Virus record (IMG/VR): IMGVR_UViG_3300036766_002220
Location: 1-48,528 of that record
Length of the DNA stretch: 48,528 bases
Direction: 5' to 3' (one strand)
Source: a virus
The notes below the pieces were generated by a model. It was given only the letters and a program-made list of their open reading frames with translations, ran no database searches and was not told the DNA's origin. The position numbers were made by a program, and so were the translations under genes. Shown here piece by piece: positions 154 through 15,610 of this stretch (the first letter of the stretch is position 1; every line of letters starts with the position of its first letter).

Positions 154-1611
154 TTAGATCGTCAGAGTCAGCGTCCAACCTGACTCGAAGTTCTCCGCGT
201 GGTCCTTGTAGCCTTCGAACACCACGGAGCCGTTCTTATCGTAGCCACGCTCGTCACCGAGGACGAGTGTAGCTCCATCGAACAGGGTGTGGAACTCGTA
301 TCTCGGATCAGCTGGGTTGATAGTCAATCCCACTTTCGTGATGACGGCGTCGACGTCGGTGTCCGCATCCACAAAGAAGATGGCCCCGCGCAACACCCCC
401 GCGGCGTCGGAGAAGGCAACGGCGAACTGGTTGGCCTCCGCGAAGGCAGCCGTGACTCGCATCCACAGGAGTGGTGAGAAGGCCGGCGACGTGAGCCCCG
501 GGTACTGGTGACGAGTGTAGGGCGGATAGCTGTCGTCCGCGAACACGTAGGTGGCAAAGCCACCCGATAGGATCTGACGCAGCGGTGGCACCGTGTCGTC
601 GCGGAAACGCCACTTGGTGCCGTCCCAGTACCTGGAGGATCCGATCTCGCAGTCCCTCCAACCCGAGTCGAAGTTCTCGACGATGCCCGTCTGTAGCTGC
701 GTGGCCTGCAAGAAGCGCCAGGGGCTCAGGTACTCGATCAGCTCAGCAGTGGCATCAACGGCTGGCTCGTCCACCACGAGACCCAGGACCTCGACGTCTG
801 TGTTGTTGAGCACGTTCACAATGATGTGGTCGCCCGAGTTCTTCGGCCCGCCGCCGATGCGGAGCGTCTTCCACAGATCGTCTGGCACGAACGACGCGTC
901 GCGCACGGAGATGCGACCCTTCTTCGTCGTGGTAGTCGCAAAGCCGATGATCCTCGTCGTGCCGATGACCACCACCAGATCGGTCACGGAGGAGTCGTAG
1001 TAGCGCTCCTTGAACTTGTCGTTTGTAGGAACGCTGTAACTCCCGGGGAGCTTCCAACCCTTCTCGAAGATCTCCCCACTAGGCACGCTCGCTTCGCTGC
1101 GGATGAGGCCCCAAGAGTACAAGAACTGCTCGTGCCACCGCGGCCACGACACCGTGCCCGAGCCCCAGATCGTGAAGCCCCAGATGCCCGTGCCCCAGAT
1201 GGACGTGCCGCCACCACCACTGTCCATATCGATCAGCTCGTCCTGACCGTCAGGCAGCAGCTTGCCCGAGGTGGCCATGTCCGGAACGGACCAGCCGCGC
1301 TCGAACCCCTCGTAGCCCAGGTCGCGGAAGAGTGCTGCCTCGCGCGTCGGCAAGTCGACGTGGGCAATGTCGTCCAGGTAGAGCGTGCTGCCCTCATTGC
1401 CACTGCCGTACGCATCCTCCCCATGCACGTACATGGGCATGTACCAGTAACGCTCGAAGACTTCGGCAGGGTCCCATGAGATCAACGTCGGCCCGAAGTA
1501 GTGCGCGTTGAAGACTGCGATGGCTTCCTGGATCGCCCGGGCGGTGGCAGACCACAGGTCTGCTGTGCCCTGCACCGTTCCTGCGGTCTCGAATGAGCGA
1601 TTGTTTGCCAT
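154..1611 (-). CDS. Tail-associated protein with five FExGW repeats
   Basis: A 485-residue protein without a recognised catalytic domain. The clearest feature is a short motif, F-[ED]-x-[GY]-W, at about residues 52, 103, 182, 314 and 475, each usually preceded by an acidic residue and followed by a turn-forming stretch. There are also three IWG triplets around residues 138-150 next to a GGGG linker. The last copy is almost at the C-terminus. Such tryptophan-anchored repeats suggest small beta modules in a tail fibre or surface-binding protein; this is inference. I chose the ATG at 1611, with AGGAG nine bases upstream; an in-frame TTG two codons earlier sits too close to that site. The gene follows the CXXX-repeat protein by 12 bases, in the same operon as the baseplate and fibre genes. 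Confidence 0.7.
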   Translation of the reverse strand: MANNRSFETAGTVQGTADLWSATARAIQEAIAVFNAHYFGPTLISWDPAEVFERYWYMPMYVHGEDAYGSGNEGSTLYLDDIAHVDLPTREAALFRDLGYEGFERGWSVPDMATSGKLLPDGQDELIDMDSGGGGTSIWGTGIWGFTIWGSGTVSWPRWHEQFLYSWGLIRSEASVPSGEIFEKGWKLPGSYSVPTNDKFKERYYDSSVTDLVVVIGTTRIIGFATTTTKKGRISVRDASFVPDDLWKTLRIGGGPKNSGDHIIVNVLNNTDVEVLGLVVDEPAVDATAELIEYLSPWRFLQATQLQTGIVENFDSGWRDCEIGSSRYWDGTKWRFRDDTVPPLRQILSGGFATYVFADDSYPPYTRHQYPGLTSPAFSPLLWMRVTAAFAEANQFAVAFSDAAGVLRGAIFFVDADTDVDAVITKVGLTINPADPRYEFHTLFDGATLVLGDERGYDKNGSVVFEGYKDHAENFESGWTLTLTI

Positions 1612-1623
1612 CTCCAAGCACTC

Positions 1624-2589
1624 CTAGAGGAGCTTCGGCCGTACTCTCTTCTTGTAGAACCCGCCCTCCTGGTAGATCTTCCGGGCCTGAAAAGGTCCTA
1701 CGGTCGACACCTTCGCGTAGGACCCACTCGCCCCGCTCGCCGCGCCGCTTCCCCCCAGGATGTCCGTCGCGGGCTCGACTAGATGCGCTGACGCCGGACT
1801 CGCGTGGAACAGTTTGATCCTGCCACCACCCCCACCGCCGCCACTGGCTCCCCCGGAACCCACGCCGCCATCGGGCGTGCCACCGGATGCACCAGAGCCA
1901 CCGGTCACGGCATCACCACCGCGGACGCTAATCGTACCACTGCTGCAGCTGACCTTGATGGCTTTGAAGAGCACGCCCCCACCGCTTCCACCCGAGCCGC
2001 CCGCCCCGCCGCCACCGCCGCCGCCGCCATGAGCCGTTGCGCTCCCTGTGCAGCTGCCGGTGCAGTCGCCCGTGCAGGTGCCGTAGCAGCCCGTGTAGCA
2101 AGTGCCAGAGCAGCTACCCGTGCAGTCGCCACCGCAACCGCCACAATAGTACAAGCAGGTGCCCGTGCAGCTGCCCTGACAGGTACCCGTGCAGAAGCCC
2201 GTGCAGTCCCCATTGCAGCCAAAGGTGCAGACATCACCGCAGCTCTTGACACAGCTGCCCGCGCAGCCGCCACCGCAGACACCCGTGCAGGACGTCTCGC
2301 AGCCGGTTGCGCACGAGAGGGTACAGTCGGACTCGCAGTGCATGGCGCAGGTACCGGTGCAGGTCTGGTAGCAAGAGCCCGTGCAGGTGTTGAAACAGCC
2401 ACCCGTGCAGTCGTAGGCGCAGGCCGCCGTGCATGTTGGAGCGCAGGTCAGATCACACGAGGTGTAACAGCCGCCCGTGCAGGTCTCACCGCACTGGAAC
2501 CGTTGAGGGGCGTCCTTGCGCGTCGGGTCATCGTAGATCCACGACGGCTGCGGCGGTTCCTCGTATGTGACCTGCGGATCGAGTTGCAT
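1624..2589 (-). CDS. CXXX-repeat protein with a polyglycine adhesin-like C-terminus
   Basis: A 321-residue protein in three parts. Residues 1-32 are a proline-rich, acidic leader-like segment. Residues 33-180 carry 38 cysteines: 30 at exact four-residue spacing (C33 to C149), one slip (C149-G-G-C152), then eight more at four-residue spacing to C180. About a third of the units are C-T-G-x. Residues 187-260 are glycine-rich, with a segment (FKAIKVSCSSG ... GGGGGGGRIKLFH) of the polyglycine/beta-strand type seen in phage adhesins and myxobacterial surface proteins; the tail is basic. It lies just downstream of a radical SAM/SPASM enzyme and a small partner gene, the setting of CXXX-repeat targets of radical SAM maturases. 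I infer a tail adhesin whose cysteine array is modified after translation. A metal-binding or disulfide-rich stalk is the alternative. Start ATG at 2589 with AAGGGG upstream. Confidence 0.85.
   Translation of the reverse strand: MQLDPQVTYEEPPQPSWIYDDPTRKDAPQRFQCGETCTGGCYTSCDLTCAPTCTAACAYDCTGGCFNTCTGSCYQTCTGTCAMHCESDCTLSCATGCETSCTGVCGGGCAGSCVKSCGDVCTFGCNGDCTGFCTGTCQGSCTGTCLYYCGGCGGDCTGSCSGTCYTGCYGTCTGDCTGSCTGSATAHGGGGGGGGAGGSGGSGGGVLFKAIKVSCSSGTISVRGGDAVTGGSGASGGTPDGGVGSGGASGGGGGGGRIKLFHASPASAHLVEPATDILGGSGAASGASGSYAKVSTVGPFQARKIYQEGGFYKKRVRPKLL
2050..2493 (-). repeat. 12-base repeat array encoding the CXXX units
   Basis: The coding DNA for residues 33-180 of the CXXX-repeat protein is a degenerate 12-base periodicity with a TGC or TGT codon every fourth codon. 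The phase slips by one codon at the C149-C152 unit. The copies vary in the other codons, so the periodicity is maintained at protein level and is not a recent tandem duplication. Confidence 0.85.
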
Positions 2590-2604
2590 CGCGAACCCCT
2601 TGAG

Positions 2605-2892
2605 CTACGGCAGCACCAGGAAGACCTCGCACGTCGCGAAGTCGATCCGCCAACTGGCCCCATCTATTGCCGTCCAGCCGTGCTTCTTGGCTGTCCTGTC
2701 CCACCAGGCCTGGAAGGCAGAACTCGTACGACCGAGATCGTCCAGGGCCTTCTCGTAGAGACGATCCATCGTCTCGAACTCGGACTTGCCGATGGTCCTG
2801 AAGAGCTCACCCAACGCCATCTTGCGCTGGTGCAGCTTTTCGATCTCGTCGCGTTCGGCGGCTTCGACCTTCCCAACCCGTTTCTCATTCAT
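2605..2892 (-). CDS. Small partner protein of the CXXX-repeat modification cassette
   Basis: A 95-residue protein beginning MNEKRVGKVEAAERDEIEKL: an N-terminal helical, charged region (to about residue 60), then a conserved-looking core with FQAWWDRTAKKHGW and a C-terminal IDFATCEVFLV strand. From memory this pattern, a small helical protein with a WWD motif and a terminal ID-x-x-TCE strand, fits the family named CXXX repeat peptide modification system protein, which accompanies radical SAM maturases of CXXX-repeat peptides; I could not run a search. The ATG at 2892 overlaps the end of the radical SAM gene by eight bases, so the two are probably translationally coupled. It may bind the substrate or the maturase, as a recognition element does in RiPP systems (inference). 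A longer reading frame upstream exists but overlaps the enzyme gene and is not needed. Confidence 0.75.
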   Translation of the reverse strand: MNEKRVGKVEAAERDEIEKLHQRKMALGELFRTIGKSEFETMDRLYEKALDDLGRTSSAFQAWWDRTAKKHGWTAIDGASWRIDFATCEVFLVLP

Positions 2893-4030
2893 GACTGCCT
2901 CTCTGCACCTGGTTGACATCGATCTGGGACCAGAATCGCTTGTTGGCCCGAGCTCGTGCCTTGTGCATCTTGCAAATGTGCGTGGCGCGATGAGCCAGCA
3001 CACCAGAATCGTCGTAGTTGAAGCCCTGACACCACGCGCAACCGCTGGCCACCTCACACTTCATGCACTCCTGAGTGCTCTGACCCGAGCGTGTCAGGTG
3101 CATGAAGGGCTCGAGCTTCTCGACATCTAGACCTCGCTCGACATCTCCCACGATCCAGGCAGGTTGTTTGGCCAGGCTGAAGCCGACGAAGCGCACGCAG
3201 GGGTAGAAGAAACCCTGCGCGTCGACGGCGAGCATGTACTTGCCAGCTCCGCACCAGTTCTGATCGTTGTCCGACATGAGCGGCTTGCCAACGTACTGGG
3301 AGAAGAACGAGCACTCATGTTTCCGCCAGAGGTCATCCTTGACCATGACATCGCCGAGGATGACCAACTGCTCCTCGAGCCGTTCGTCATCCCCCGGTTG
3401 CCAGACGTTCTCAAAGACAACATTCGCGTGCACGACAGCAATGCCGAGAGAGAACAGATACAAGATCGACTCGGCCACGAAGGGGAGTGTGTCATGAGAC
3501 ACCGTGACCTTGGTCGAGTGCTTGGGGAAACGCTTCAACCAGGCCGCGATGTTGCGAACGACGTGAGCATGCGTGCCACGACCATCAGGGAACAGACGCT
3601 CCCTGTCGTGGACATGCGCCGGACCGTCGATGGTCATGCCCACGTCGAAGCGATTGGGGTAGCGGTCGAGGAGTCGCTGGAATCGCGGGTCATTGTAGAG
3701 CACGCCGTTCGTACTCATGCCGAAGATGGCATTCTCGAACCAGGGATGATCGAGCTCGTAGGCACGAAGCAGCGTGTGGTCTACAACCTTCTCGATGAGA
3801 TCAATCTCGAGAAGCGGCTCACCGCCAATGAACTCCACTGTTCCATGCAGCTGCGGGATGACATCACGGTGCTCGAGCAGGTAGTCGATGGCGCGCTTGG
3901 CCACGTCGAAGCTCATGCGACTGCTGTGGTCCTTGCCGACCATGTAGCAGTAGCGGCAGCGGAAGTTGCAATCCTTCGTCACGACGAAGGTCACAGTCTT
4001 CCGGTCGAGCGTGTTCAAGTCGCGTGTCAT
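2885..4030 (-). CDS. Radical SAM/SPASM peptide maturase, CXXX-repeat target type
   Basis: A 381-residue radical SAM enzyme. The 4Fe-4S/SAM motif C-x3-C-x2-C is at C21, C25 and C28, after a first beta strand; the GGE motif is at residues 69-71. The C-terminal part is a SPASM domain for auxiliary clusters: C260-x12-G-x4-C278, then C322-x2-C325-x5-C331-x2-C334, and C353. Such enzymes make thioether, carbon-carbon or epimerised residues in peptides, or act on proteins as anaerobic sulfatase maturases. No sulfatase is present. The nearest cysteine-containing substrate is the CXXX-repeat protein two genes downstream, and a small cassette partner overlaps its 3' end. I infer post-translational modification of the adhesin's cysteine array inside the infected host. 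The start ATG at 4030 lies three bases after the stop of the glycine-rich gene, so translation is probably coupled. Confidence 0.88.
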   Translation of the reverse strand: MTRDLNTLDRKTVTFVVTKDCNFRCRYCYMVGKDHSSRMSFDVAKRAIDYLLEHRDVIPQLHGTVEFIGGEPLLEIDLIEKVVDHTLLRAYELDHPWFENAIFGMSTNGVLYNDPRFQRLLDRYPNRFDVGMTIDGPAHVHDRERLFPDGRGTHAHVVRNIAAWLKRFPKHSTKVTVSHDTLPFVAESILYLFSLGIAVVHANVVFENVWQPGDDERLEEQLVILGDVMVKDDLWRKHECSFFSQYVGKPLMSDNDQNWCGAGKYMLAVDAQGFFYPCVRFVGFSLAKQPAWIVGDVERGLDVEKLEPFMHLTRSGQSTQECMKCEVASGCAWCQGFNYDDSGVLAHRATHICKMHKARARANKRFWSQIDVNQVQRGSHE

Positions 4031-4033
4031 TTT

Positions 4034-4723
4034 CTACTCGTGTCCCGCTCCACCGGCTCCTCCAATGCCACCGGCGGCGGCGCCGGTGCCAGGGAACAAG
4101 CACGATCCGGACATGATGATCTTCCTCGCCGCTTCAATCCAGCAGGCTGAACCCGCTCCTCCTCCTATTCCCCCTGCGCTGGCTTGAGACCCCGCGCTGC
4201 CACCAGCCCCACCGCCCCCTCCACCACCTCCGCCCCCGCCCCCACCGCCGCCACTGCTTCCCACGGCGAGCTCCTCGCCGCTGCTTGTCCCGTACGTTGT
4301 TCCACCAGCGCCGTCTGAGGCACCAGCTCCCCCAGCTGCAGCTCCGGCGCCCCCGGCTGCCCCGCCGCCTCCTCCACCCCCTCCGGCTCCACCAGCGCCT
4401 CCGTAGCCACCGCCGCCGAAGCCGCCGCCCAGACCCGCCCCGACACCACCGGCCGTGCCGGGCAATCCGGTTGCTCCGGGGGCACCACCACTGCCACCAG
4501 GGCCGCCACCGCCTCCGACGTTGCCCAGGCCGGAGCCGTCCAGAGTGCCGAGGATCTGCGCCTCAACGCAGGCCACCTGGAGGTAGGCAGACACCGTGGC
4601 CGTCACGCCCAGGTTCACGCGAAAGATGCCGACCAGGGTGTGCACGCCGGCTATCGCAGTCGGGCTGGAGATGATCCAGTCCGCACCGTCGTGACTGCCC
4701 CCACCGGTGTTGGTCCAGGCCAT
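4034..4723 (-). CDS. Glycine-rich tail adhesin-like protein
   Basis: A 229-residue protein. Residues 1-70 are a beta-rich head (ADWIISSPTAIAGVHTLVGIF, then VSAYLQVACVEAQILGTLDG). The rest is mostly polyglycine with alanine and serine, interrupted near the C-terminus by WIEAARKIIMSGSCLF, which resembles another strand pair of the head. Polyglycine segments of this kind form packed polyglycine-II layers in some phage adhesins and fibres; that fold is inferred. It has the same glycine-rich module type as the CXXX-repeat protein but lacks the cysteine array (three scattered cysteines). It sits between the glycosyltransferase fusion and the radical SAM enzyme, three bases from each. It could be a second substrate or a partner subunit of the adhesin. 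Confidence 0.75.
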   Translation of the reverse strand: MAWTNTGGGSHDGADWIISSPTAIAGVHTLVGIFRVNLGVTATVSAYLQVACVEAQILGTLDGSGLGNVGGGGGPGGSGGAPGATGLPGTAGGVGAGLGGGFGGGGYGGAGGAGGGGGGGGAAGGAGAAAGGAGASDGAGGTTYGTSSGEELAVGSSGGGGGGGGGGGGGGGAGGSAGSQASAGGIGGGAGSACWIEAARKIIMSGSCLFPGTGAAAGGIGGAGGAGHE

Positions 4724-4726
4724 CTG

Positions 4727-6022
4727 CTAGTCCTTTTCCTTGACCCAGATCTCTGCCGAGCGGCCGTTGACCTTGTAGACCATGTCGTCACGTCGCACGA
4801 AGCCAGCAGCGGCGTAGGCCTTCTTGGCCATGACGTTGTTGACCCAGATGGCCACATGCCCGCGCCTGCCGGTCATGTAGAGCTCGACGACGCGACGACC
4901 AATGCCTCTGTTTCGCCACTCCGGCGCGATGAAAATCGGCATCTCGTAGCTACCGTTCATCCCCCGAGGGACGAAGAAGCCAACGATCTGCCCGTTGAAC
5001 TTGATCAAAACCGCCGGTGCTCTAGAGCTCACCGTTTGCAACGCCGGTGCGAGAATCTCGTCCGCGCGGGCGCCGGAGAGTAGAGACTCGGGCACGCACT
5101 CGTAGGCTGTCGCTTGCAACTGGATGTCTCTGTCGAGAACCGGGAAGTCCAACAAGTCCTCTGGCACCGATGAAGGAAACTCGGGAGAGTGCCCGAGCGG
5201 CTGCACGGGCGTCCACACCGGCAAGAGCTCGTGGTAGGGACGGTAGAGCAAGTCGGCCACGGCTTCGGGCACGTCGACCGGCGCTTGGTACTCGATGGCA
5301 GCCTTCCGGAATCCCTGATAGTGGAAGCACACCAGGGGGAAGATACCGTCGATCACAATGACACCGTTCACCGACTCGACCACGTGCTTCTTGACGTTCC
5401 ACGCTGCCAGGTTGATCCCTGGATGCTGGCAGATCTTGACGCCAGCAAACCGGTTCGGCTCGTCATGCAAAACGGTCAGGTAGCCTTCGTCGACAAACCT
5501 CCCACCGGACGCTGGCTCCCAGAGACACCACTCGACACAGCGCGCTTGCCACCAGGCGAGGAACGTGGCGCTGTTCTGATCTGCACGGCAGGCGACAAAA
5601 CCCGCGTTGAAGTAACTAAGAGGCGAGTCGTGATCTTTCCCGTAGGGCGTGACCAGGAAGGACGAGTCGCCAAGCTCGGTGCCCAACGCGGAGCAGGTAG
5701 ACCAGAACAACATGTCTGAGTCCACGTAGGTCAACGCGGCCACGTTGTACTTGACGAGGACATAGCTCAGCAAGAAAGACTTCAGCGACTGCACATAGGC
5801 AGCCCAGGGCCGCCCCGCCCGCGTGGCAGCGATGCTCGGATACTGTCCCTCCAGATCGCTCAGGACGACGGGAATCGCATGCTCCTTGCCTGCAAGCGCT
5901 TGCTCCACTGCCTCCTCGAGGCAGAGGACGTACACCGTGGAGCCCCCGTGGTCGAGAATGGACTGCAGGCAGACGAGGCCCTCTGGCGTGTGCTGCCTGT
6001 CAAACATCATCGCGAAGTCCAT
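4727..6022 (-). CDS. Glycosyltransferase-GNAT acetyltransferase fusion
   Basis: A 431-residue two-domain enzyme. Residues 1-270 look like a GT-A nucleotide-sugar transferase: a Rossmann-like start (FAMMFDRQHTPEGLVCLQSIL), a metal/sugar-nucleotide DxD motif in TYVDSDMLF (101-103), FNAGFVA (138-144), a WWQ-x-RC-x-EWC block, FVDEGYL and an HPGINLAAWN motif near 200-209. This set is typical of a hexosyltransferase family linked to surface polysaccharide synthesis. Residues about 335-415 are a GNAT domain with the acetyl-CoA loop R-N-R-G-I-G at 370-375 and a C-terminal AKKAYAAAGF. It is the first gene of the adhesin-modification cluster and abuts the glycine-rich protein. It may glycosylate and acylate tail adhesins, or alter host surface sugars. 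Start ATG at 6022 with GAGAGG upstream. Confidence 0.8.
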   Translation of the reverse strand: MDFAMMFDRQHTPEGLVCLQSILDHGGSTVYVLCLEEAVEQALAGKEHAIPVVLSDLEGQYPSIAATRAGRPWAAYVQSLKSFLLSYVLVKYNVAALTYVDSDMLFWSTCSALGTELGDSSFLVTPYGKDHDSPLSYFNAGFVACRADQNSATFLAWWQARCVEWCLWEPASGGRFVDEGYLTVLHDEPNRFAGVKICQHPGINLAAWNVKKHVVESVNGVIVIDGIFPLVCFHYQGFRKAAIEYQAPVDVPEAVADLLYRPYHELLPVWTPVQPLGHSPEFPSSVPEDLLDFPVLDRDIQLQATAYECVPESLLSGARADEILAPALQTVSSRAPAVLIKFNGQIVGFFVPRGMNGSYEMPIFIAPEWRNRGIGRRVVELYMTGRRGHVAIWVNNVMAKKAYAAAGFVRRDDMVYKVNGRSAEIWVKEKD

Positions 6023-6036
6023 GCTGACCTCTCGCC

Positions 6037-6879
6037 TTAGTTAGCGTAGACAGCGTAGATGTCGGTGTAGATGAGAGACACGCCTGTCCCACCAGTGCCT
6101 TGCTTCCTGAGCTGCACCTCGATCTCGATGAGGGTGTCTACTGGCTCGTTGCTGCCAACGATGGCCAGCGTGACAGCCCGAACGGCTTCCGTCGTCCCCG
6201 TGACGCTCATGGCCCCAGAGGTGTCCGTGCCGCCACTCCCCACGGCCAGCACGCGACACTCAGCGATCTCACTCTGACCCGAGGCCACCAGGCTGGTCAC
6301 GATGCGCCAGCTCGTGGGTGGCTTGGCCGAGTCGCGCACGATGCGAAAGCTCTTCTTGGTCACCCAGCCCGTTCCAGGCTCGACCAGGGTGGTATCGTCA
6401 GAGAAGACGAGCATCCGATCCAGAGTCCCAACGCCAGCGTCGGCGTACTCGAGATAGCTCTCGCCCGATGCCACACGGATGAACTTGCCCTCCTGCCCTT
6501 GAAAGCTGCCAGGGCCATCCCCGAGCTGCTGGAAGCCGAAGTAGATGTTGACAAGGTGTCGCGAGCCCGACTCCGGTACCACTCCGACGGGGACGTGGTA
6601 GTCGATGATCTCCCCAGGGCCATCGGTCAGGTCGACGAAGCGACTCACCCCACCACCGCCGCCACCGGCCTCCAGCGTCGCGACGCGCTCGCGCAAGCAG
6701 CCGGACGGCAGGTTGCCCGGCTTGCTCCCCACCTCGAGGGCAACCGACTGGAGCTTGTCGCGCATCGTATGGATCTGCGTGACATGGGTCGAGTCGATGG
6801 TGTTGTCCAGATTGGGCTGCACCGAGGAGAGCACGTCCTGCATTGCTGGGTAGTTGGTGCTCCACGTCTTGAGAGACAT
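6037..6879 (-). CDS. Tail fibre or baseplate-attached protein
   Basis: A 280-residue protein. The N-terminus (SLKTWSTNYPAMQDVL, followed by a helical segment ending LRERVATLEAGGGGGG near residue 80) has the pattern of phage fibre N-termini that attach to the baseplate: a short extended stretch, a helix, then a glycine hinge. The remainder is beta-rich and ends in YTDIYAVYAN. It follows the J-like baseplate gene by 10 bases, the usual place for fibre genes. The ATG at 6879 is preceded by AGGAGA; the reading frame is open for 67 codons further upstream, but that part overlaps the J gene and is out-of-frame shadow sequence. The receptor is unknown. Confidence 0.7.
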   Translation of the reverse strand: MSLKTWSTNYPAMQDVLSSVQPNLDNTIDSTHVTQIHTMRDKLQSVALEVGSKPGNLPSGCLRERVATLEAGGGGGGVSRFVDLTDGPGEIIDYHVPVGVVPESGSRHLVNIYFGFQQLGDGPGSFQGQEGKFIRVASGESYLEYADAGVGTLDRMLVFSDDTTLVEPGTGWVTKKSFRIVRDSAKPPTSWRIVTSLVASGQSEIAECRVLAVGSGGTDTSGAMSVTGTTEAVRAVTLAIVGSNEPVDTLIEIEVQLRKQGTGGTGVSLIYTDIYAVYAN

Positions 6880-6889
6880 TGCGGTTCTC

Positions 6890-8446
6890 CTACAGCGCTG
6901 CGCCCGAATCGGCGTCGGTGATGTCCACGCTGGACAACTTCGGAAACTCGATGGGCAAGAGCACCACGGAGGAACGCAGCCAGCCGCTGCCCGTGTTGAA
7001 GAGCAGGCCCTGAGCTCCCTCGTCGACTTTGCGAATGCCCTCCACATCGCGGATGGCGTTGAAGATGTCGCTCCAGGCAAGCTCGCCCTGAATGGTGCCC
7101 TCGACGTCCTTCAGGTTGGCGCCGAAGTCGATGTCCGGGTTGTCGATCCCCTCGGGCAACTGCGCCGCGAAGAAATCAGCCAGGGCGGCTCGGACGAGCG
7201 CGCCGACAGTGGCTCCATCAGCACCCTGCTTGAGATAGATGCGCGTGCGGATAGAGATCGCCTTGAATGCTGCCGCGTACATCACGTAGCTGAAGGTGAT
7301 CGTCGATGGCTTGTTCGTGTCGATCTCACTCTTGACCGCGTCGAGCAGCGATTGACTCGGAGAGCCGGCGGCGATCCGACCGGAGGCCAGCTTGGTACCC
7401 TGTGCCACGATGTAGAGCCGGCCCGTGTTCTCCTGGATGCCAGCGAACTCGTTGCTTGTCACCATGAGCGCGCGGGCCACACCGCGGACGCTCTTGGCCA
7501 CCGTCTCGAAGTCCTCTTTGGTCACCGTGCGTGTGAGCACGCGCAGTGACGCTGGAGCGAGCATTCTCGCTTCGGCCAGGGACATGCGGTCGGCACCACC
7601 GGAGGCTGCCTGCGCGTTCGTCACGCTCACCGGAGCCGGCTGTGAGTCGGAGTAGAAGACAGCATCCTCGACGATGGTGACATGGTCGGCTTCCACGTTG
7701 CCTTTCAGACCACCGCCGATCTTGTAGTTCACGGTGATCTCACCATGCGGGATAGCCCCCGTCACGCCATCGCCAAACTGGACGTAGCCGCGGTCGAGCT
7801 GGTCGACATCGAGCAAGAACACGCGGTCTGTCGACTTGCTACCGAGAAGTGTGTCCACTCTCACATAGGGACCATCCTCTGCAGTAACCTGTCCGGAGGC
7901 ATCCAGCGAGCCATCAAGAAATGGAGTGTGCTTGAGCGTGAAAGATTGGTTCGGCTCGTCGGTTGAGATGAAGGTATCGCTCCGCGCCTCCGACTGCTCG
8001 ATGGCCACAGTCACGCTCTTGGCCCCGACGCCGATCTCCTTGTATTCCGTGGTCTGGAACGGCAGCGGATTCTCCGGGTCGCTCGTGCGAAGCCGCGTGC
8101 CGATGTTGAGGATCACCTTCTTGGGCGCTGCAAAAGGCAGAGAGAACGTCTCCGACGTCGTAGCCGCTGCCGCACCACGCAGCTTGAAATTGATGAGACG
8201 TCCAAGTCGGATGGCCGAGATGCGCTGCTGGAGTGTGGGCCAGAAAGCCTCGGCAGCCTGCGAGTCCTGGTAGTAGTTCAAGATGTCGCCGACATGGGCA
8301 AAGAGCTCGAGCAGAATGTTGCCGAAGTTGGCAATGTTGAAATCGGTCCAGTCCGGGAACACTGAGCGAACGAGACCCTGGAGGCGCAAGCGAAGCGCAT
8401 CGAAGTCCCGCGTCGAGTAGTCGAAACTGCGCGGTAGGAGAGCCAT
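6890..8446 (-). CDS. Baseplate J-like protein (wedge)
   Basis: A 518-residue baseplate wedge protein of the gpJ/gp6 family, which forms the ring linking the central hub to the fibres in contractile tails. Supporting features are the N-terminus (DYSTRDFDALRLRLQGLV, then FNIANFGNILLELFAHVGDILNYYQD), the central SLAEARMLAPASLRVLTRTVTKEDFETVAKSVRGVARA block typical of the family, and a C-terminal domain with WSDIFNAIRDVEGIRKV. It overlaps the gp25-like gene by one base (TGATG), the classical gp25-gpJ arrangement, and is followed by fibre genes. Length is within the usual range. Confidence 0.9.
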   Translation of the reverse strand: MALLPRSFDYSTRDFDALRLRLQGLVRSVFPDWTDFNIANFGNILLELFAHVGDILNYYQDSQAAEAFWPTLQQRISAIRLGRLINFKLRGAAAATTSETFSLPFAAPKKVILNIGTRLRTSDPENPLPFQTTEYKEIGVGAKSVTVAIEQSEARSDTFISTDEPNQSFTLKHTPFLDGSLDASGQVTAEDGPYVRVDTLLGSKSTDRVFLLDVDQLDRGYVQFGDGVTGAIPHGEITVNYKIGGGLKGNVEADHVTIVEDAVFYSDSQPAPVSVTNAQAASGGADRMSLAEARMLAPASLRVLTRTVTKEDFETVAKSVRGVARALMVTSNEFAGIQENTGRLYIVAQGTKLASGRIAAGSPSQSLLDAVKSEIDTNKPSTITFSYVMYAAAFKAISIRTRIYLKQGADGATVGALVRAALADFFAAQLPEGIDNPDIDFGANLKDVEGTIQGELAWSDIFNAIRDVEGIRKVDEGAQGLLFNTGSGWLRSSVVLLPIEFPKLSSVDITDADSGAAL

Positions 8447-8865
8447 CAGATTGTCACCTCCTGCGTGATCGGAGGCAGAAGAACGCCAGGAGCGCCCCGC
8501 TCCGAACGCAGTGTCCAGGTCACTCTGGTGTACATCGCCGGATCGTCATAACGCTTCATGGTCGCGCACTGCCGAATGAGCGCTCGCGATTCGAAGCGCG
8601 AGATGGTCTGGGCCACATCGTTGCTGAGTCGTTGCTGCTGCGCCACGGACATGTTGCGATGCCGGTAGCGCTCGACATCGAGGCCAAAGTCGGGGCGCCA
8701 TGGGAGCTCACCTCGACGCGTTCCGCAGATTTGCGAGATCGACGCCTTCACCAACGACTCGCCGCATGCCGAGAGGAAGTCGTTGCTGCCGAGACGTCGC
8801 AGGGGGTGCACAAGCCCGTTACCAGTAACGGTTCGCTTGAAGGCGTCCAGGGTTCGAATGGCCAT
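8446..8865 (-). CDS. gp25-like baseplate wedge protein
   Basis: A 139-residue protein of the GPW/gp25 family, a baseplate wedge component that joins sheath and wedge. The family pattern is visible: short conserved N-terminus, RRGELPWRPDFGLDVERYRHRN (where the conserved tri-residue core of the family sits), a helix with DVAQTISRFESRALI, and a C-terminal strand. Members are related in fold to a lysozyme-like domain but generally lack activity. It sits directly upstream of the J-like gene with a one-base overlap. Start ATG at 8865 is preceded by AGGAGAG. Confidence 0.85.
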   Translation of the reverse strand: MAIRTLDAFKRTVTGNGLVHPLRRLGSNDFLSACGESLVKASISQICGTRRGELPWRPDFGLDVERYRHRNMSVAQQQRLSNDVAQTISRFESRALIRQCATMKRYDDPAMYTRVTWTLRSERGAPGVLLPPITQEVTI

Positions 8866-8875
8866 TGATACTCTC

Positions 8876-9700
8876 CTACGGATTGCTCAAGTTTGGGATC
8901 GAGGCCAGATCGAACGTGGTCGCGATGCCCAAGACGTTGGAGAGGAAGGCTTCAAGAGTGCCGATGAGATTGCGCAGCACCGTGAGCGCCTTGACAATTC
9001 CGCCAAGGGGTGGAAAGTCACCGACCCCTGGCACATTCGATCCGGCCTGGCCCAACGCCGACTTGATCTCGTCCAGCTTCTTGTCCATCCCCGGAACGAG
9101 TGCAGCAAAGAGCTCGAGGATGGAGAGAATGACGCCGATAAACTTTCCTACGACCGTCAAGATCAACTGGATGCCCTCGACCTGCTTCATCATGTTGTTC
9201 TTGGCGCAGTTCCCGATCTCCAAGAGCACTGGATCCTGATCGGTGGCCGCCTGCGTGAGCGTGTTCTTGATCGCCGAGATCTCCACGTCGATCATCGTCA
9301 CGACAGAGAGGATGTCGTCGAGCAGCACGCGGATGGCCACGAGGATGTCTCGCACCATGCGGATGTAGACGATGGGCGGGAAGAGTTCGATCAGGGCGGC
9401 AAATGCCTTGAAGAGCTTAGTGAAGCACGAGATGAGCGGCCCCGGCGAGAGCGTCATGAAGCACTTGGGGATCGCCGTAAGGCAGTTGAGAATGGCCTGG
9501 ATGATGTCCAGAACCTTCAGGATGGAGTAGACGGGTGCCAGCGCCGGGTTGATGCTGTTGAGGAGCTTGAGCACGAGTTCGGACGGCCGGGGGAACTTGT
9601 CGAGCGAGTCCCGCATGAAGTTGAGCTGGCCGACACCCGGCATCGTGAAGGTGAGCGTTCCCGGGATGTCGGGAATTTTGATGCAGACGGAAGTCGTCAT
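8876..9700 (-). CDS. Hydrophobic helical tail protein of unknown function
   Basis: A 274-residue protein, strongly hydrophobic and mostly helical, with repeated leucine/isoleucine-rich segments (about residues 38-75, 85-135 and 175-205) and cysteines at 73, 81, 92 and 164. There is no signal peptide; the N-terminus is a beta-like SVCIKIPDIPGTLTFTMPGVGQLNF. It lies between the tube-chaperone-like gene and gp25, a position often taken by hub or initiator proteins. It could be a baseplate hub plug or a membrane-interacting ejection protein. I do not recognise the family. Confidence 0.7.
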   Translation of the reverse strand: MTTSVCIKIPDIPGTLTFTMPGVGQLNFMRDSLDKFPRPSELVLKLLNSINPALAPVYSILKVLDIIQAILNCLTAIPKCFMTLSPGPLISCFTKLFKAFAALIELFPPIVYIRMVRDILVAIRVLLDDILSVVTMIDVEISAIKNTLTQAATDQDPVLLEIGNCAKNNMMKQVEGIQLILTVVGKFIGVILSILELFAALVPGMDKKLDEIKSALGQAGSNVPGVGDFPPLGGIVKALTVLRNLIGTLEAFLSNVLGIATTFDLASIPNLSNP

Positions 9701-9713
9701 TGATTCCCTATAC

Positions 9714-10388
9714 CTATTCGTCTTCAGTCGCGAGCTGACCGAAGCCGCTCTGAAACACCCGCGAGTATGTCATGAGACCGGACAAAACTTCAAGGAATTT
9801 GAGCTTGATCGTGTACTCGAGAGGCTCACCCTCTGCCGAGAAGCGCTCGTAGTCGAATGAGAGAGACTCCACGACGCCGGTGAAGGAGAGTGCAGCACGT
9901 GGCCAGTCCACATTTACCAGCGGCGGCGTCAGCCGGCGCCCGCATGGCACCGTGAGCGCAGCGAAGAAGTCGCGGTAGTAGAGCGCACCCTTCTCCTGCG
10001 CCTCCTTGGGCACCCAGTTCTTCTGGATGAAGACCTGCCAGGAGATCCACAGGTCCATCGAGATGATTCGCGAGGACGTGCGAATGTACTGAATGATCTC
10101 ATGCGACAGGCCGAGGACGCCGCGCTTGGAATACTGTGGCTCCCAGGATTCACTGAAGCTCGTCGGATTGACCAGAGCATGCTGCTCGACAGGTGTGTCG
10201 TCCTCAACCTCGGGACCCACTGGGTAGGCGCGGAAGAGGACCAGTCGCTCCTCATCGTGCCCTCGTGCGGCCAGGAACGCCGCGCTGTTGTCTGCCGAGG
10301 GAAGCGTTCCCATCTGACTCTGGATGCTACTCGGCAACCCGACGATGCCCGCATCGCCCGTCATCAAAACTTCTTTACCTGTCGCCAC
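9714..10388 (-). CDS. CIS-tube-type hub/tube chaperone protein
   Basis: A 224-residue protein with the pattern of the contractile-injection-system tube N-terminal domain: LVNPTSFSESWEPQYSKRG, then GLSHEIIQYIRTSSRIISMDLWISW, a CGRRLTPPLVNVDWP segment and a final FSAEGEPLEYTIKLKFLEVL. In injection systems this domain caps or initiates the tube and is often followed by a LysM domain; here the LysM module is a separate gene at 12389-12745. I chose the GTG at 10388, with AGGAG upstream. It is separated from the spike gene by a 106-base gap that carries a copy of a dispersed promoter-like element. Confidence 0.7.
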   Translation of the reverse strand: MATGKEVLMTGDAGIVGLPSSIQSQMGTLPSADNSAAFLAARGHDEERLVLFRAYPVGPEVEDDTPVEQHALVNPTSFSESWEPQYSKRGVLGLSHEIIQYIRTSSRIISMDLWISWQVFIQKNWVPKEAQEKGALYYRDFFAALTVPCGRRLTPPLVNVDWPRAALSFTGVVESLSFDYERFSAEGEPLEYTIKLKFLEVLSGLMTYSRVFQSGFGQLATEDE

Positions 10389-10403
10389 GTTCCAACTCCT
10401 GAC

Positions 10404-10466
10404 TTGACATCACCGCGCTTGTCCTGTAAGCTGATCGGCGGTGCGGGTGGGTTGATATTGTATATG
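10404..10466 (+). promoter_or_regulatory. Dispersed promoter-like element, copy 1
   Basis: In the 106-base gap between two tail genes the plus strand reads TTGACA, 17 bases, TAAGCT, then GGCGGTGCGGGTGGGTTGAT at 10437-10456 and an AT-rich TATAT. A second copy with the same spacing lies at 28757-28824. As a promoter it would fire against the tail operon. It may be a regulatory antisense start, a phage early promoter, or the scar of an inserted element. Confidence 0.45.
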
Positions 10467-10494
10467 CCATTCCTACAGTAGCCCGCCTGCTCTT

Positions 10495-11049
10495 TCAGAT
10501 CGGCCCTCCCACCATGGCCACGGGTCGCCCTCCGATGGAGATCCCCCCACCGGCAGCCGATAGGGTGATCGATGCCCCGCTGATGACGAGGTGGTTACGC
10601 GTCTTGAGGCTCATGGATCGGTCTCCCATGTCGAGCTCGATCTCCTCTTCCTTGTCCTTGGATCGAATGACGAGCTGCTTCTTCTCGTCGTTGATGAAGA
10701 TCTCGAAGAGGTCCGTCTCAAGAGCAACCACCCGGTGCACGGTCTCGACGGGTTCGGCTGACGCGGCACGAGGGACCTCAGACACACCTGTCGGGTTTGC
10801 CCACGGCCCGCAGAGGAAGAAGGGCATCGAGCTATCGGCCTGCACGAAGCCGATGAGCACGTTCGACTGCACGGGTGGCACGGCGAAGAAGCCGCGCTGC
10901 GGTCCACAGCCGGGGTAGCCGTAGGGCAAGGCCCATGCGGTCTCCGTCTTGATCGCGGGTATGTGGGCGCGGATGCGTCCGAGCTTCTTCGGGTCGTCAT
11001 TTCGCGTGACGGTGCCCTGGTAGAAGAGGCCGAGATTTACTTGTTCCAT
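10495..11049 (-). CDS. Baseplate spike protein (gpV/gp5-type, OB-fold)
   Basis: A 184-residue spike. Residues 1-90 form the OB-fold of gpV/gp5/VgrG proteins: YQGTVTRNDDPKKLGRIRAHIP, then PGCGPQRGFFAVPPVQSNVLIGFVQADSSMPFFLCG. After a linker, residues 105-184 are short beta repeats (FEIFINDEKKQLVIRS, EIELDMGDRSMSLKTR, HLVISGASITLSAAGGGISIGG) that fit a trimeric needle. The tip is short, so a separate PAAR-like cap may be encoded elsewhere. It follows the hub gene by six bases, the usual order. Start ATG at 11049 has AGGTAAAG upstream. Confidence 0.88.
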   Translation of the reverse strand: MEQVNLGLFYQGTVTRNDDPKKLGRIRAHIPAIKTETAWALPYGYPGCGPQRGFFAVPPVQSNVLIGFVQADSSMPFFLCGPWANPTGVSEVPRAASAEPVETVHRVVALETDLFEIFINDEKKQLVIRSKDKEEEIELDMGDRSMSLKTRNHLVISGASITLSAAGGGISIGGRPVAMVGGPI

Positions 11050-11055
11050 TGATCT

Positions 11056-12384
11056 TTACCTGGGTTCGCGCCGACCGCTGTAGTTGGCGCGCTTGGAGAG
11101 CTGCGCGGCCGGCGTCTGCTGGTTGGCCTTCGTCAGGGACTTACCCCCGTGCCCGGGTCCCTCGCGCTTGAGTCGCCCCTTCTTTTTCTTGCCCATCTCC
11201 TTGCTCGTCTGATTGACGATGGCGATGGTGCCAGTCTGAAACTCTTTCGTCTCTGGATTCCAGTAGACGAAGTTGAAGTACTTGATCGGAGCGGCCTTGC
11301 CGGGGATCACGTGCTTGAGCCCGACGTCGGTCGTGTAGCCTACGTTGTCGATGGTGTGCCGCACCGAACGAACAACCCAGTGGCCGTCTAGGAATGGACC
11401 GAAGTTTTTGAGATCTAGGGCCATGCCGCGCAGGACCTTGGGGTTACCGACGAGAGACGCGCGAACGAACCAGCGGTTGGAGCTGCGGTTGATGAGCCGC
11501 CTGGCTGCCGCCTGCCGTAGCTTGGCAGGCAGCGCGGTCATGACATCATGCTTCTCCATGTGCGTGGGCATGATCACGCCACCCTTGCCTGGCTCCACGT
11601 CGACGCTGGACATGGCACGCTTGTACGGATCGATAGCCTTGGCCCGCACCTTGCGCACGTTCATGTCGTAGTCGCCCTCGATGGTGAAATCGAGGAGGTC
11701 TGGCCCATAGAAGTACTCGATGGTCTCCGACCCGAAGCCCTTCCAGTTATCCTGATGGAAGTGAAACTCGTCGCGAATCGTGCGGAACTGAAAGCCAAGT
11801 TCGTCGGCAATGCGCGTGAGGAACTCGTGGCAGGTCTCGTGCTCGTTGATCGAAACCTCCTCGTACACCGCGTCGGGCTGTCCGCTGAGCGCGATGCCAT
11901 CCTGCACGAAGATCTTGGTCTCCCGAAAGCCTTGCTGGCGCGCGATCTGCCGCACGATGTCGGCGAGCTTCATGTTGCGGAAGGTGCCAACGTCGAGTTC
12001 TGGACGCCAGTGGAGCTTGGGCGTCTGCGGCAGACCCTCCATGTGAATGATACCCCAGGCACCAGGGGCTGGACTGATTGTTGATGGTGAGCGAACGGGA
12101 GCGGCTTTGATCTTAGTGATGGTCACGCGGAAGGGGCGGGAACGCAGCCCCTCGTAGCCAAATGTGATCTTCATCTGCAGTCCGACGAACAGCACGGCCA
12201 TATTCACGATCTTGCCGTCGGTGTTGTCGAACTGGAAGGTCATGATCGGCTTCTTCCGCGGCTCATCCACGTACTCGAAGTGCATGAGCCTCTGCTCCAG
12301 ATCCTTGCTCGTGATATTCGGCGGAGCCGAGACGAGCTCGAAGGTGACACTCGGAGCAGTGGGATCGAAGCCAGCGATACTCAT
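11056..12384 (-). CDS. Baseplate hub protein (gpD/gp27-like)
   Basis: A 442-residue hub protein of the late-control gpD/gp27/VgrG-N type, which forms the trimeric ring under the tube to which the spike attaches. Features are the N-terminal beta domain (VTFELVSAPPN ... MHFEYVDEP ... MTFQFDN), KLADIVRQIARQQGF, HETCHEFLTRIADELGFQFRTIRDEFHFHQ (the family's hallmark block) and a basic, disordered C-terminus (KKKKGRLKREGPGHGGKS) from about residue 400. It sits between LysM and spike genes, four to six bases apart. The basic tail is an extension beyond the usual hub fold. Confidence 0.85.
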   Translation of the reverse strand: MSIAGFDPTAPSVTFELVSAPPNITSKDLEQRLMHFEYVDEPRKKPIMTFQFDNTDGKIVNMAVLFVGLQMKITFGYEGLRSRPFRVTITKIKAAPVRSPSTISPAPGAWGIIHMEGLPQTPKLHWRPELDVGTFRNMKLADIVRQIARQQGFRETKIFVQDGIALSGQPDAVYEEVSINEHETCHEFLTRIADELGFQFRTIRDEFHFHQDNWKGFGSETIEYFYGPDLLDFTIEGDYDMNVRKVRAKAIDPYKRAMSSVDVEPGKGGVIMPTHMEKHDVMTALPAKLRQAAARRLINRSSNRWFVRASLVGNPKVLRGMALDLKNFGPFLDGHWVVRSVRHTIDNVGYTTDVGLKHVIPGKAAPIKYFNFVYWNPETKEFQTGTIAIVNQTSKEMGKKKKGRLKREGPGHGGKSLTKANQQTPAAQLSKRANYSGRREPR

Positions 12385-12388
12385 CCAA

Positions 12389-12745
12389 TCACTCCTCGGT
12401 GGCCAGGTAGTCGCTGCCCGCCCCGGCCAGTGCTGTCTGCACCGCGGACAGGGGAGGAATCAAGACGATCTCGCCGTCTTGCAACGCGATGGTCGGATCG
12501 TTGATGGGCTCTGGCTGAAAGTCGGCGATGACCCACCAGAGACGTGCGCCGTCCCCCGGCTGTCCGACGCTCTTGTAGTAGCGCATGGCCAGACTCCAGA
12601 GCGTGTCGCCGGTCTTGACGACATGCGCGCGCACGCCCTCGAGATCCTCCCAGAGCAGCCGCGTGCGGGCGGCAAAAGACAGACGCCCGGCCTCGTCCTG
12701 GAAGACATCGGACAGGTTATAGGGACTGGTCGGTGCGATGTACAT
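12389..12745 (-). CDS. LysM-containing tail protein (gpX/gp53-like)
   Basis: A 118-residue protein with a LysM module at about residues 40-98: HVVKTGDTLWSLAMRYY, LWWVIADFQ, then INDPTIALQDGEIVLIPPL. The N-terminal 35 residues are an extended segment, NLSDVFQDEAGRLSFAARTRLLW. Tail proteins of this kind (P2 gpX, T4 gp53, XkdP C-terminus) clamp baseplate wedges together; some may touch peptidoglycan. It is directly downstream of the tape measure gene and upstream of the hub gene, as in other contractile tails. Confidence 0.82.
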   Translation of the reverse strand: MYIAPTSPYNLSDVFQDEAGRLSFAARTRLLWEDLEGVRAHVVKTGDTLWSLAMRYYKSVGQPGDGARLWWVIADFQPEPINDPTIALQDGEIVLIPPLSAVQTALAGAGSDYLATEE

Positions 12746-12757
12746 GTTCTGCTCGTC

Positions 12758-15610
12758 CTATGGTGGCACTTCTTCTGTCGACTTGGGCTCCGGTTTACCC
12801 GTGGCCGGTGGCGGCGTGTCTCCGGCCTTGGGCTTCGTCTGGCGAACAGCTATCTCGACATTTTTGGTAGCCCGGATCAGAGCCGCCAACGTGGCCTTGC
12901 TGTCCCCCATGAGTCGGATGTAGCCCTCCGGCTCGGCTGCTCCCGGCCCGCCGGCCTTCTTGGCAGTAGGTGCCGGAGCCCCCGGCTGCTGTTTCAATGG
13001 ACCGTAGACGCCCTCACGCACCGCCTTCTCGAAATTCGCCGGAGTGATCTCCGTCGTCCGCAGGAACTGTCCGCCAATGGCAACAGCCTTGTCGGTCAAC
13101 ACCTGTGCACGGCGGAAGAGCACCGGGTCGAAGTGTGTGGTTGTGGTCTCTCCAGCCATCTTCGGCAGCCCGGTGTATTTTCCGATCTTGCCTTCCTGAT
13201 AGGCGCGCTCTTCGGGTGTCATCACGCGCTTCACACCGGTCTTGGCCGAGGCAAAGGCTTCTATCCAAGCCGCCTCAGCCTCCTTGGTAGCTACGGTGTG
13301 CCGCTGGCCAAGCACATCGGAGACCCGACCTCCTCCAGCCCAGGCCTCCTTGCCATAGGCCTGACGGGCGCCGAAGAGCTCCTGGCTCTCGAACAGAGCC
13401 TGATGCAGTGCCTTGCGCACACCGGCAAGCTGCTTGTCGATATTTTTCTGATCGACACCCGCCTCGAGACCGAAGGCGCGGATCATGCTGGTGATACCCT
13501 CGAGCCGGTTCTGCGCCTCCTCGACGATCTTGGGATCGCCGACACCGCCCTCCAGAATCTTGTTGAGATCGGCTAGGCCAGCACTGTACTCCTTCTGCGC
13601 CTCGATGTTGAGGAAGGGCGCTACCTTCTTGCCGGCAGCTTCGATCCCGGCCACGGACGTGCGAGAGAGTTCAGGGCGAACCAGCGGCTTCTTGAGCCCG
13701 AGACCATAGGCGGCCTCGCGCAGATCCTTGGATGCGTGGAAGAGCGACTCGACCGTATCCGAGATCTGACGATGGAACGCGTCCTCGAAGGCAGTCATCT
13801 GCTGCCAATAGACCTTCTGGTTGGCCTCGAACACCTTCTTCTCGTACTCGGCCCTCCCGGTCGTGACCCACTTCTCGTGCTTGGCGAGGCGCTCGTTGGC
13901 CTCGCTGAGCTCTCGGTAGACGTAGGCCAGGCCCTTGATCGCCCAGTAGACAGCCGCGATCACTCCAACGACCCAGATGAGCTTGCCGGCGCCAGATAGG
14001 AGCATGCGCGCGCCGCGCCACAGCCAGGTGCCAGCGCTCTTGGCGACTGTGGCCGCTGCTCCGCCCAGGCTGCCCAGGCTGCCGGCACCCGACAGGGCTC
14101 CACCGATGCCCCGGAGCAGGCCCCCACCGCCCGCTCGAGCGGATCGATAGCCCTCAGCCATGCGTCGGCCGAGTAGGCGCCCGGCGCCAATCTGCGGGCC
14201 TACCATCTCTCCGGCAGCACCGACAGCCTTGGATGCCGTGGCGAACGACAGCAATCCTCCTGAAGTGGTGGCAGCCGACTTCCCGAGCCACTCCATGGCC
14301 ACTGCCACCAGATGAATGGTGCCCTTGATCATCGCAAGCCCGGCGATGACGGCGACGTAGAGTCCACCTCCGATGGCCAGAGCGCCGAAGGTGTTGCGCA
14401 GGAACCAGGAGAAGGTACCCATCTCAGTGAAGGCCTTGCGCACCCAGTCTGCCATGGCAGCGAGGCCCTTGATCACCGGTGTCAGGATGGGCACGACGCC
14501 TTCCATGAGCGCGGCAAGCATGGCGTAGAAGTTGGTCGTGAGCACCGTGAGCTGAGCACCAAGCGGCTTGAGACCCTCCTCGTTCATGGTTTGGAGGATG
14601 TTGCCCGTCTCCGAGGATGAGAAGTTGAATTGGTCAAAGACATCCCGAGCGTTCTTGCCACCATCGGTCAGCGCTTGCAGCAGGGCCACGACGGGCTTGA
14701 CTGCTCGCTGGCCAAAGGCACGTGCAATGGCTGATGCGAAGCCGGTCAGGTTGCCTTCGTTGACCTTGAAGCTGTTGGCCATCTGAACGAAGACTTCTTG
14801 CAGATCGACTCCACCTTTGGGATTGGTAGCCGTTGCCAGGTTCACCCCGAGCTCTTGCAACGCGGCAGCACTACCTTTGGTCGGCTTGAGCAAGCTCACC
14901 ATCACGGACGACAGGCCCGTGCCGGCGCGGGCGGCATCGCGGAACCGCGAGACGGTCAGGGCGTAGACGGGAAGGATCTGGTCCCATGTGGAGCCAGAGA
15001 GCTGGGCCGCGCTGGCCATGTTGATGAGGCCCTTGTCCATCTGGTTGAGCTCTAGGCCCGCCGCACGTGCGGAGAGCACCCACTGACCAAGCGCTCGTGG
15101 GAGATCGTCGGCGCTCACGTTGTAGCTGCGGAGGATGGTAGAGGCCGCCTTGACCGTGCGCCCGATGTCCTTGTCGAAGTATGTAGACGCGAGTTCCATC
15201 GTCGGGATGAGAGCGTTTGTCGTCGCGCCGACGTTGCGCAGGGACATGTACAGGCTCTTGGCGCCCTCGATGGCCTCGGTGGGAGAGAAGGGTGTGACAC
15301 CTGCCGCCTTGATGGCCGCCTGGGACATCCGCCGGGTCTCGTCGGCATTGAGCCCTGCCGCAACGGCCATCCTCGTGTTGGCGTGCTCGACCTCTAGTGC
15401 CGGTTTGATCATGCCGGTGATAAACGTGGCCGCCTTTTTGGCCACGATCATGGCGTTGTAGGCACCGGCGAGCTCTTTGAAGGAGCCCTTGGTCTTCTTG
15501 GCTTGGTCTTCGAGTGCCTGGAGATCACTGGTGGCACTCTGCGTCGCACCCGTGAGCTGATTCTCGCCGCGAATGACGTAGCTGATCGTATTGGTGATAT
15601 TCCGTGCCAA
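12758..15610 (-). CDS. Tail tape measure protein
   Basis: A 950-residue protein that sets tail length and lies inside the tube until ejection. Residues 1-400 have the conserved TP901-type tape measure region (coiled start LTGATQSATSDLQALEDQAKKTKG; LNADETRRMSQAAIKAAG; LYMSLRNVGATTNALIPTMELAS; LPRALGQWVLSARAAGLELNQMDKGLINMA; ATATNPKGGVDLQEVFVQMANSF). Hydrophobic segments follow near 425-450 and 545-570, then a long charged helical region and a proline-rich C-terminus. By the usual rise per residue it would specify a tail of roughly 140 nm (estimate). The start is TTG at 15610, preceded by GAGGTAG. No lytic or peptidase domain is obvious. Confidence 0.92.
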   Translation of the reverse strand: MARNITNTISYVIRGENQLTGATQSATSDLQALEDQAKKTKGSFKELAGAYNAMIVAKKAATFITGMIKPALEVEHANTRMAVAAGLNADETRRMSQAAIKAAGVTPFSPTEAIEGAKSLYMSLRNVGATTNALIPTMELASTYFDKDIGRTVKAASTILRSYNVSADDLPRALGQWVLSARAAGLELNQMDKGLINMASAAQLSGSTWDQILPVYALTVSRFRDAARAGTGLSSVMVSLLKPTKGSAAALQELGVNLATATNPKGGVDLQEVFVQMANSFKVNEGNLTGFASAIARAFGQRAVKPVVALLQALTDGGKNARDVFDQFNFSSSETGNILQTMNEEGLKPLGAQLTVLTTNFYAMLAALMEGVVPILTPVIKGLAAMADWVRKAFTEMGTFSWFLRNTFGALAIGGGLYVAVIAGLAMIKGTIHLVAVAMEWLGKSAATTSGGLLSFATASKAVGAAGEMVGPQIGAGRLLGRRMAEGYRSARAGGGGLLRGIGGALSGAGSLGSLGGAAATVAKSAGTWLWRGARMLLSGAGKLIWVVGVIAAVYWAIKGLAYVYRELSEANERLAKHEKWVTTGRAEYEKKVFEANQKVYWQQMTAFEDAFHRQISDTVESLFHASKDLREAAYGLGLKKPLVRPELSRTSVAGIEAAGKKVAPFLNIEAQKEYSAGLADLNKILEGGVGDPKIVEEAQNRLEGITSMIRAFGLEAGVDQKNIDKQLAGVRKALHQALFESQELFGARQAYGKEAWAGGGRVSDVLGQRHTVATKEAEAAWIEAFASAKTGVKRVMTPEERAYQEGKIGKYTGLPKMAGETTTTHFDPVLFRRAQVLTDKAVAIGGQFLRTTEITPANFEKAVREGVYGPLKQQPGAPAPTAKKAGGPGAAEPEGYIRLMGDSKATLAALIRATKNVEIAVRQTKPKAGDTPPPATGKPEPKSTEEVPP

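Follow-up and report, generated by a model that had tools for sequence, protein, structure and literature searches.

The CXXX-repeat cassette of Bacteroidales consists of a target (TIGR04114), a radical S-adenosylmethionine (SAM) maturase (TIGR04115), a second maturase (TIGR04119) and a partner protein (TIGR04116). Another maturase, CteB, which acts in SCIFF systems, forms thioethers, and covalent strengthening of a virion is known from phage HK97, whose capsid is cross-linked by autocatalytic isopeptide bonds. PapB, a SPASM enzyme, cross-links repeated Cys motifs through Cys-Asp/Glu thioethers and accepts Cys-Xn-Asp with n = 0-6 (PMC9413430). Here we describe a form of the CXXX-repeat system in the tail operon of a contractile-tail phage, carried by the 48.5-kb contig of virus record IMGVR_UViG_3300036766_002220 (the window, meaning the whole stretch of 48,528 nucleotides that was analysed). 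These families have been recognised in bacterial genomes, and their presence in phage tails is apparently undescribed. Searches of the open literature, outside which lie most subscription papers and all preprints, returned no match for TIGR04114, TIGR04115, TIGR04116 or 'CXXX repeat' and no described case of radical SAM chemistry with phage, tail or thioether, in agreement with the first-pass annotation of this DNA, which knew of no such case in a tail.

The segment concerned, positions 1624-6022, lies at the fibre end of an operon that reads leftwards. Its genes are all found where the first-pass annotation had placed them, on the minus strand:

4727-6022, minus strand: glycosyltransferase-like (by eye) and GNAT acetyltransferase fusion, 431 residues (PF13508)
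4034-4723, minus strand: glycine-rich adhesin-like protein, 229 residues (by composition)
2885-4030, minus strand: radical SAM/SPASM maturase TIGR04115, 381 residues (by NCBIfam profile score)
2605-2892, minus strand: TIGR04116 CXXX-repeat modification system protein, 95 residues (by NCBIfam profile score)
1624-2589, minus strand: target with Cys at every fourth residue, 321 residues, array followed by polyglycine module (by open reading frame (ORF) and spacing)

We propose, with a probability of roughly 0.6, that the maturase, acting before the virion is assembled, cross-links Cys to other residues (probably by thioether bonds) in a component of the tail fibre. The maturase scored 473 bits against TIGR04115 (curated cut-off 350), with residues 11-366 covering profile positions 2-359 of 359, and the partner, whose ORF shares 8 bases with that of the maturase, scored 79.6 bits against TIGR04116 (cut-off 50; residues 6-92, profile positions 2-90 of 90). 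Both CXXX-repeat families to which the first-pass annotation had pointed are therefore present above their curated cut-offs. The radical SAM motif CX3CX2C (C21, C25, C28) and the SPASM cysteines (C260, C278, C322, C325, C331, C334, C353) are intact in the window maturase, which the first-pass annotation had read as a SPASM radical SAM enzyme, and invariant across five aligned relatives. Ranking next among NCBIfam models are, for the most part, those for enzymes that mature Cys-containing peptides or subunits (PapB, CcpM, quinohemoprotein maturase, SCIFF); the second-best of all, PapB (NF047865), gave 196.2 bits, below its cut-off of 340. The nearest solved structure by sequence was 5wgg/5why (E 1.5e-23), which we take to be CteB, the SCIFF thioether maturase; unlike the CteB system, the window holds no SCIFF peptide, and the SCIFF model TIGR03974 gave the maturase a score far under its cut-off (112 bits against 425). 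An identity as a sulfatase maturase, given in the first-pass annotation as an example of a refuting assignment, was dismissed by score (71 bits with TIGR03942 against 473 with TIGR04115).

The target contains 39 Cys in its 321 residues, of which 38 form a single array with steps of four residues in 97% of cases and of three in 3%, and a polyglycine module follows, as first reported. TGC encodes 32 of these Cys and TGT the other 7. Within the spacers, position 1 favours Thr/Ala/Gly/Tyr, position 2 Gly/Thr and position 3 Thr/Ser/Gly/Asp; taken together the spacers are rich in Thr, Gly, Ser and Asp but varied. The sole tandem DNA repeat inside the array is one short stretch (2155-2206, period 12, about four copies), so the array is not a recent DNA repeat. 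The locus resembles the Bacteroidales cassette in having maturase and partner families over cut-off and an array of Cys at every fourth residue with Ser/Thr/Gly spacers, but it differs in its gene order, in its location in a tail operon and in lacking both a twin-arginine leader and TIGR04119.

With an alignment of five maturases as the query, the search yielded 248 relatives in viruses, and 80 loci among them were retained; with the window maturase alone as the query, the scan of viral contigs returned no relative. The TIGR04115 cut-off was exceeded in 44 of the 50 viral records scored. Counting each distinct maturase once, a same-strand Cys-array ORF was found within 4 kb of 64 of 68 distinct viral maturases, related contigs not being fully independent, compared with a single one among 46 unrelated radical SAM loci from the genome scan (p = 7e-26). 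Two of the four viral maturases without an array lie on contigs under 5 kb. The viral pairs have a median gap of 330 bp and a median of 40 Cys, up to 160. The maturase of the window very probably acts on the window's own Cys array. Searching the DNA for nine Cys at four-codon steps gave at least 119 stretches in viral contigs, and this pattern was left out of the counts because most matches were frames in repetitive DNA without a maturase. Such meaningless frames would fit the idea that repetitive DNA gave rise to the Cys-rich ORF incidentally and that the maturase, as cargo, acts on a host protein. That idea appears very improbable given the adjacency counts above, the varied spacers and scant tandem repeat of the window array, and the conservation of Cys through synonymous TGC/TGT changes in jumbo phages.

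In these cultured jumbo phages the system is seen in a distant form. SPN3US, phiEaH2, CR5, Phobos, Kwan and Asesino each carry two tandem Cys-array ORFs of 127-143 residues with 20-23 Cys, located about 2-3 kb upstream, with the gene for a virion structural protein on one side and the radical SAM genes (phrog_1802) on the other; in SPN3US they are at 5097-5489 and 5500-5904 of locus L004, and those of loci L283-L287 occupy the same position. The best NCBIfam model for the SPN3US-like enzyme was TIGR04115 at 125.6 bits, far under the cut-off, and unlike the window these phages carry a second radical SAM gene in place of TIGR04116. Across the six phages, Cys positions are 97% identical and other residues 55-57% (57-60% inside the repeat), in alignments whose aligner itself favours Cys on Cys. 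Between 39 and 44% of the Cys-Cys pairs use differing, synonymous codons, and the retention of Cys despite codon change points to selection on the protein. Existing annotation misses 11 of these 12 ORFs in frame, and the annotated SPN3US_0166 is a different frame of the second SPN3US array, so that proteomic searches against the annotated set would miss that array. The main text of the SPN3US proteome papers does not name gp163-gp167. Counted together with the viral loci, distinct phages with the module number in the tens at least, and cultured jumbo phages carry a distant form; this spread was understated by the first-pass annotation, which had described one odd phage only.

The relatives lie among tail-fibre genes in many unrelated phages, and tail-fibre proteins are the commonest annotated neighbours of viral maturases. 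Tail, fibre or baseplate functions account for 17 of the 25 most-matched PHROGs (one more is radical SAM) in a scan of 141 neighbouring proteins from 49 loci, which counts families over loci, related contigs not being independent. Pfam matches further include collagen repeats, Phage_tail_fib, Mu Gp48 and Prophage_tail. Of the 13 records that have a Baseplate_J gene over the cut-off, 10 carry it on the same strand as the maturase and 2.1-5.7 kb away. The target of locus L059 itself matches a tail protein (phrog_21973, E 2.9e-11), and the arrays of L050, L143 and L186 belong to larger proteins: that of L050 forms the end of a protein downstream of ORFs that look by eye like terminase, portal and capsid genes, and that of L186 runs on into a glycine-rich region. 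We consider it likely that the Cys-array product is part of the virion.

Another explanation is that the Cys-array protein is an effector resembling ribosomally synthesized and post-translationally modified peptides (RiPPs), acting as a bacteriocin or in superinfection exclusion, and that its position among tail genes marks only a late-gene cargo slot. The families were indeed defined on bacterial cassettes with exported-looking peptides, 31 of 32 Bacteroidales-type targets bear a twin-arginine-like SRREFFKK leader, and the jumbo-phage arrays are short. However, the window target starts MQLDPQVTYEEPPQPSWIYDDPTRKDAPQRFQ, with no RR and no twin-arginine leader, and phmmer with the TIGR04119 protein of locus L002 as query found no relative in the window or the phage loci, while the same search matched in nearly all Bacteroidales loci. 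Phage targets are also large (median 277 residues, with arrays of up to 160 Cys), some also contain tail-protein or other large domains, and their neighbours are recurrently tail-fibre genes, so that an effector role seems improbable. A phage protein released by lysis would need no export signal. The L002 record, MT837480.1, is filed as Bacteriophage sp. but is a Bacteroidales-type chromosomal fragment with TatA- and TatC-like ORFs and a full CXXX cassette, and it was counted as bacterial.

As to the chemistry, thioether stapling is our best guess, given the likeness of the maturase to the PapB and SCIFF enzymes, which bond Cys sulfur to carbon; the bond is probably of this type. Like PapB, the window enzyme is a SPASM protein facing repeated Cys motifs; unlike PapB, whose substrate is Cys-X3-Asp/Glu, it faces spacers poor in these acidic residues, and its PapB score falls under the cut-off. 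Three points weigh against the proposed cross-linking of a tail part: the neighbour scan draws on related contigs, the TIGR04114 repeat model gave the window target 12.3 bits, under its cut-off of 20, and Asp/Glu are uncommon in the spacers of the window array. It follows from the last point that the exact PapB-type Cys-X3-Asp bond cannot be general, and Thr, Ser or Gly carbons are the likelier acceptors. In principle, a Cys array could coordinate metal or, once the cell has lysed, form disulfides, and the array might be structural yet held in either of these ways, the maturase doing something minor or acting, for example, on the glycine-rich product of 4034-4723, the gene immediately upstream of it. 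We regard this as unlikely, since Cys arrays accompany this maturase subfamily in nearly all viral loci and the enzyme resembles thioether maturases.

Under the proposed stapling, the 4.4-kb segment 1624-6022 would be an exchangeable tail-fibre module. Late in infection, in the host cytoplasm, the TIGR04115 maturase and TIGR04116 would modify the Cys array of the 321-residue target, most likely by forming thioethers between Cys sulfurs and carbon atoms in the spacers. A flexible Thr/Ser/Gly-rich array would thereby become a rigid, reduction-proof rod, and the stapled array with its polyglycine module would be built into the baseplate or fibre apparatus as a stalk or part of an adhesin. This would share covalent strengthening of the virion with HK97 but differ in acting through a radical enzyme on a tail component rather than autocatalytically on the capsid.

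The maturase and TIGR04116 may act as a complex, as suggested by the maturase of phage locus L125 (9995-11455), to whose C terminus a second TIGR04116-like domain is fused. The predicted model of TIGR04116 is confident (predicted local distance difference test score, pLDDT, 92) and shows a strand, three helices and two strands. Structure comparison, which bears on whether TIGR04116 could be a PqqD-like winged-helix RiPP recognition element (RRE), gave nothing convincing in the PDB (best Foldseek E-value 2.6; best VIA-align Z 7.3, to an unrelated small protein), no fold being thereby excluded. TIGR04116 (26 loci) never co-occurs with a helical domain that is part of most phage targets (65 loci). 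This domain, of about 80 residues with the pattern ELK..V..E..RR, was seen solely in Cys-array proteins, at their N or their C terminus (for example in L126, 11197-12285, and at about 65 other loci), and its predicted fold had no PDB match. The distribution suggests that TIGR04116 and the helical domain could be alternative routes by which the maturase recognizes its target, although the mutual exclusion tracks clades and so reflects one or few events.

In a quick tree, unrooted and hence silent on which way the cassette passed between phage and Bacteroidales, the window maturase groups with that of L125 (Shimodaira-Hasegawa-like approximate likelihood ratio test (SH-aLRT) 98%; 56% identity), maturases of Bacteroidales cassettes form a separate clade (support 99), and 53 phage members fall within another clade of 57 rows (support 100). 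The L125 phage shares the partner family and encodes a target with 160 Cys; downstream lies a glycosyltransferase-like ORF (11846-14551). Such a gene also stands beside the cassette in the window (4727-6022, there fused to GNAT). That the two phages most alike in their maturases share such a gene hints that the same tail part may also carry sugars. Within the window's fusion, the GNAT part of the first-pass description stood (PF13508, residues 340-409, 31 bits against a cut-off of 27); the N-terminal half looks like a glycosyltransferase by eye (YVDSDMLFW) and had no match in Pfam, PHROGs or NCBIfam, nor did the glycine-rich product of 4034-4723.

Around the segment, the operon contains the following genes, and its sheath, tape measure, wedge and Baseplate_J genes upstream bear out the original placement of the cassette inside a tail operon:

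24194-25117, minus strand: head protein (family library matches)
17177-19432, minus strand: tail sheath (family library matches)
12758-15610, minus strand: tape measure (family library matches)
11056-12384, minus strand: tail/hub protein (family library matches)
8446-8865, minus strand: gp25-like wedge (family library matches)
6890-8446, minus strand: Baseplate_J protein (PF04865, 51.9 bits, cut-off 21.1; phrog_6 baseplate wedge)
6037-6879, minus strand: short tail-fibre-like protein, right flank (N terminus common with L288; start assumed at the ATG of MSLKTW)
154-1617, minus strand: tail-fibre-like protein, left flank, 487 residues (homologous to L288 6875-8653)

The nearest baseplate relative is phage locus L288, with 60% identity between the Baseplate_J proteins. 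Counterparts of both flanks adjoin directly in L288 (6230-6871, then 6875-8653), and the window product of 6037-6879 is 56% identical over 57 residues to L288 6260-6427. The glycosyltransferase-GNAT, glycine-rich, maturase, TIGR04116 and Cys-array genes are all absent from this junction. Since the flanking genes adjoin in L288, 1624-6022 looks like a single accessory unit in a fibre slot. The cassette was seen in none of 20 Baseplate_J relatives including L288, several of which are short contigs, and gain in the window phage is indistinguishable from loss in L288 with the genomes compared. The left-flank product of 154-1617, which had no family match in Pfam, PHROGs or NCBIfam, contains repeats of an F-E-x-G-W-like motif (FERYW, FERGW, FEKGW, FDSGW, FESGW), and its L288 homologue contains similar motifs (FEEYW, FEEEDW).

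Two further observations concern the viral relatives. Maturase matches in the L171, L175, L180, L191, L201 and L202 records cross one to five in-frame TAG codons, resembling phages in which TAG codes for an amino acid, and Cys arrays may be read through as well. A prophage-like copy of the module lies at 8487-11218 of locus L229, from the cultured Neglectibacter timonensis, with neighbours similar to those in phages.

We put at about even odds the broader idea that many phage lineages use radical SAM enzymes to staple the Cys-array stalks of their host-binding fibres, and that the Bacteroidales cassette and the phage module were exapted from one another. If true, the proposal would give a function to a widespread, uncharacterised radical SAM subfamily and explain Cys-array genes overlooked by annotators. 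A distant version is available in cultured, genetically tractable jumbo phages such as SPN3US, and enzymatically stapled repeat rods would be useful in protein engineering. For the phages themselves, it would reveal a chemical route by which viruses harden their tail fibres, with virion proteins matured by radical chemistry.

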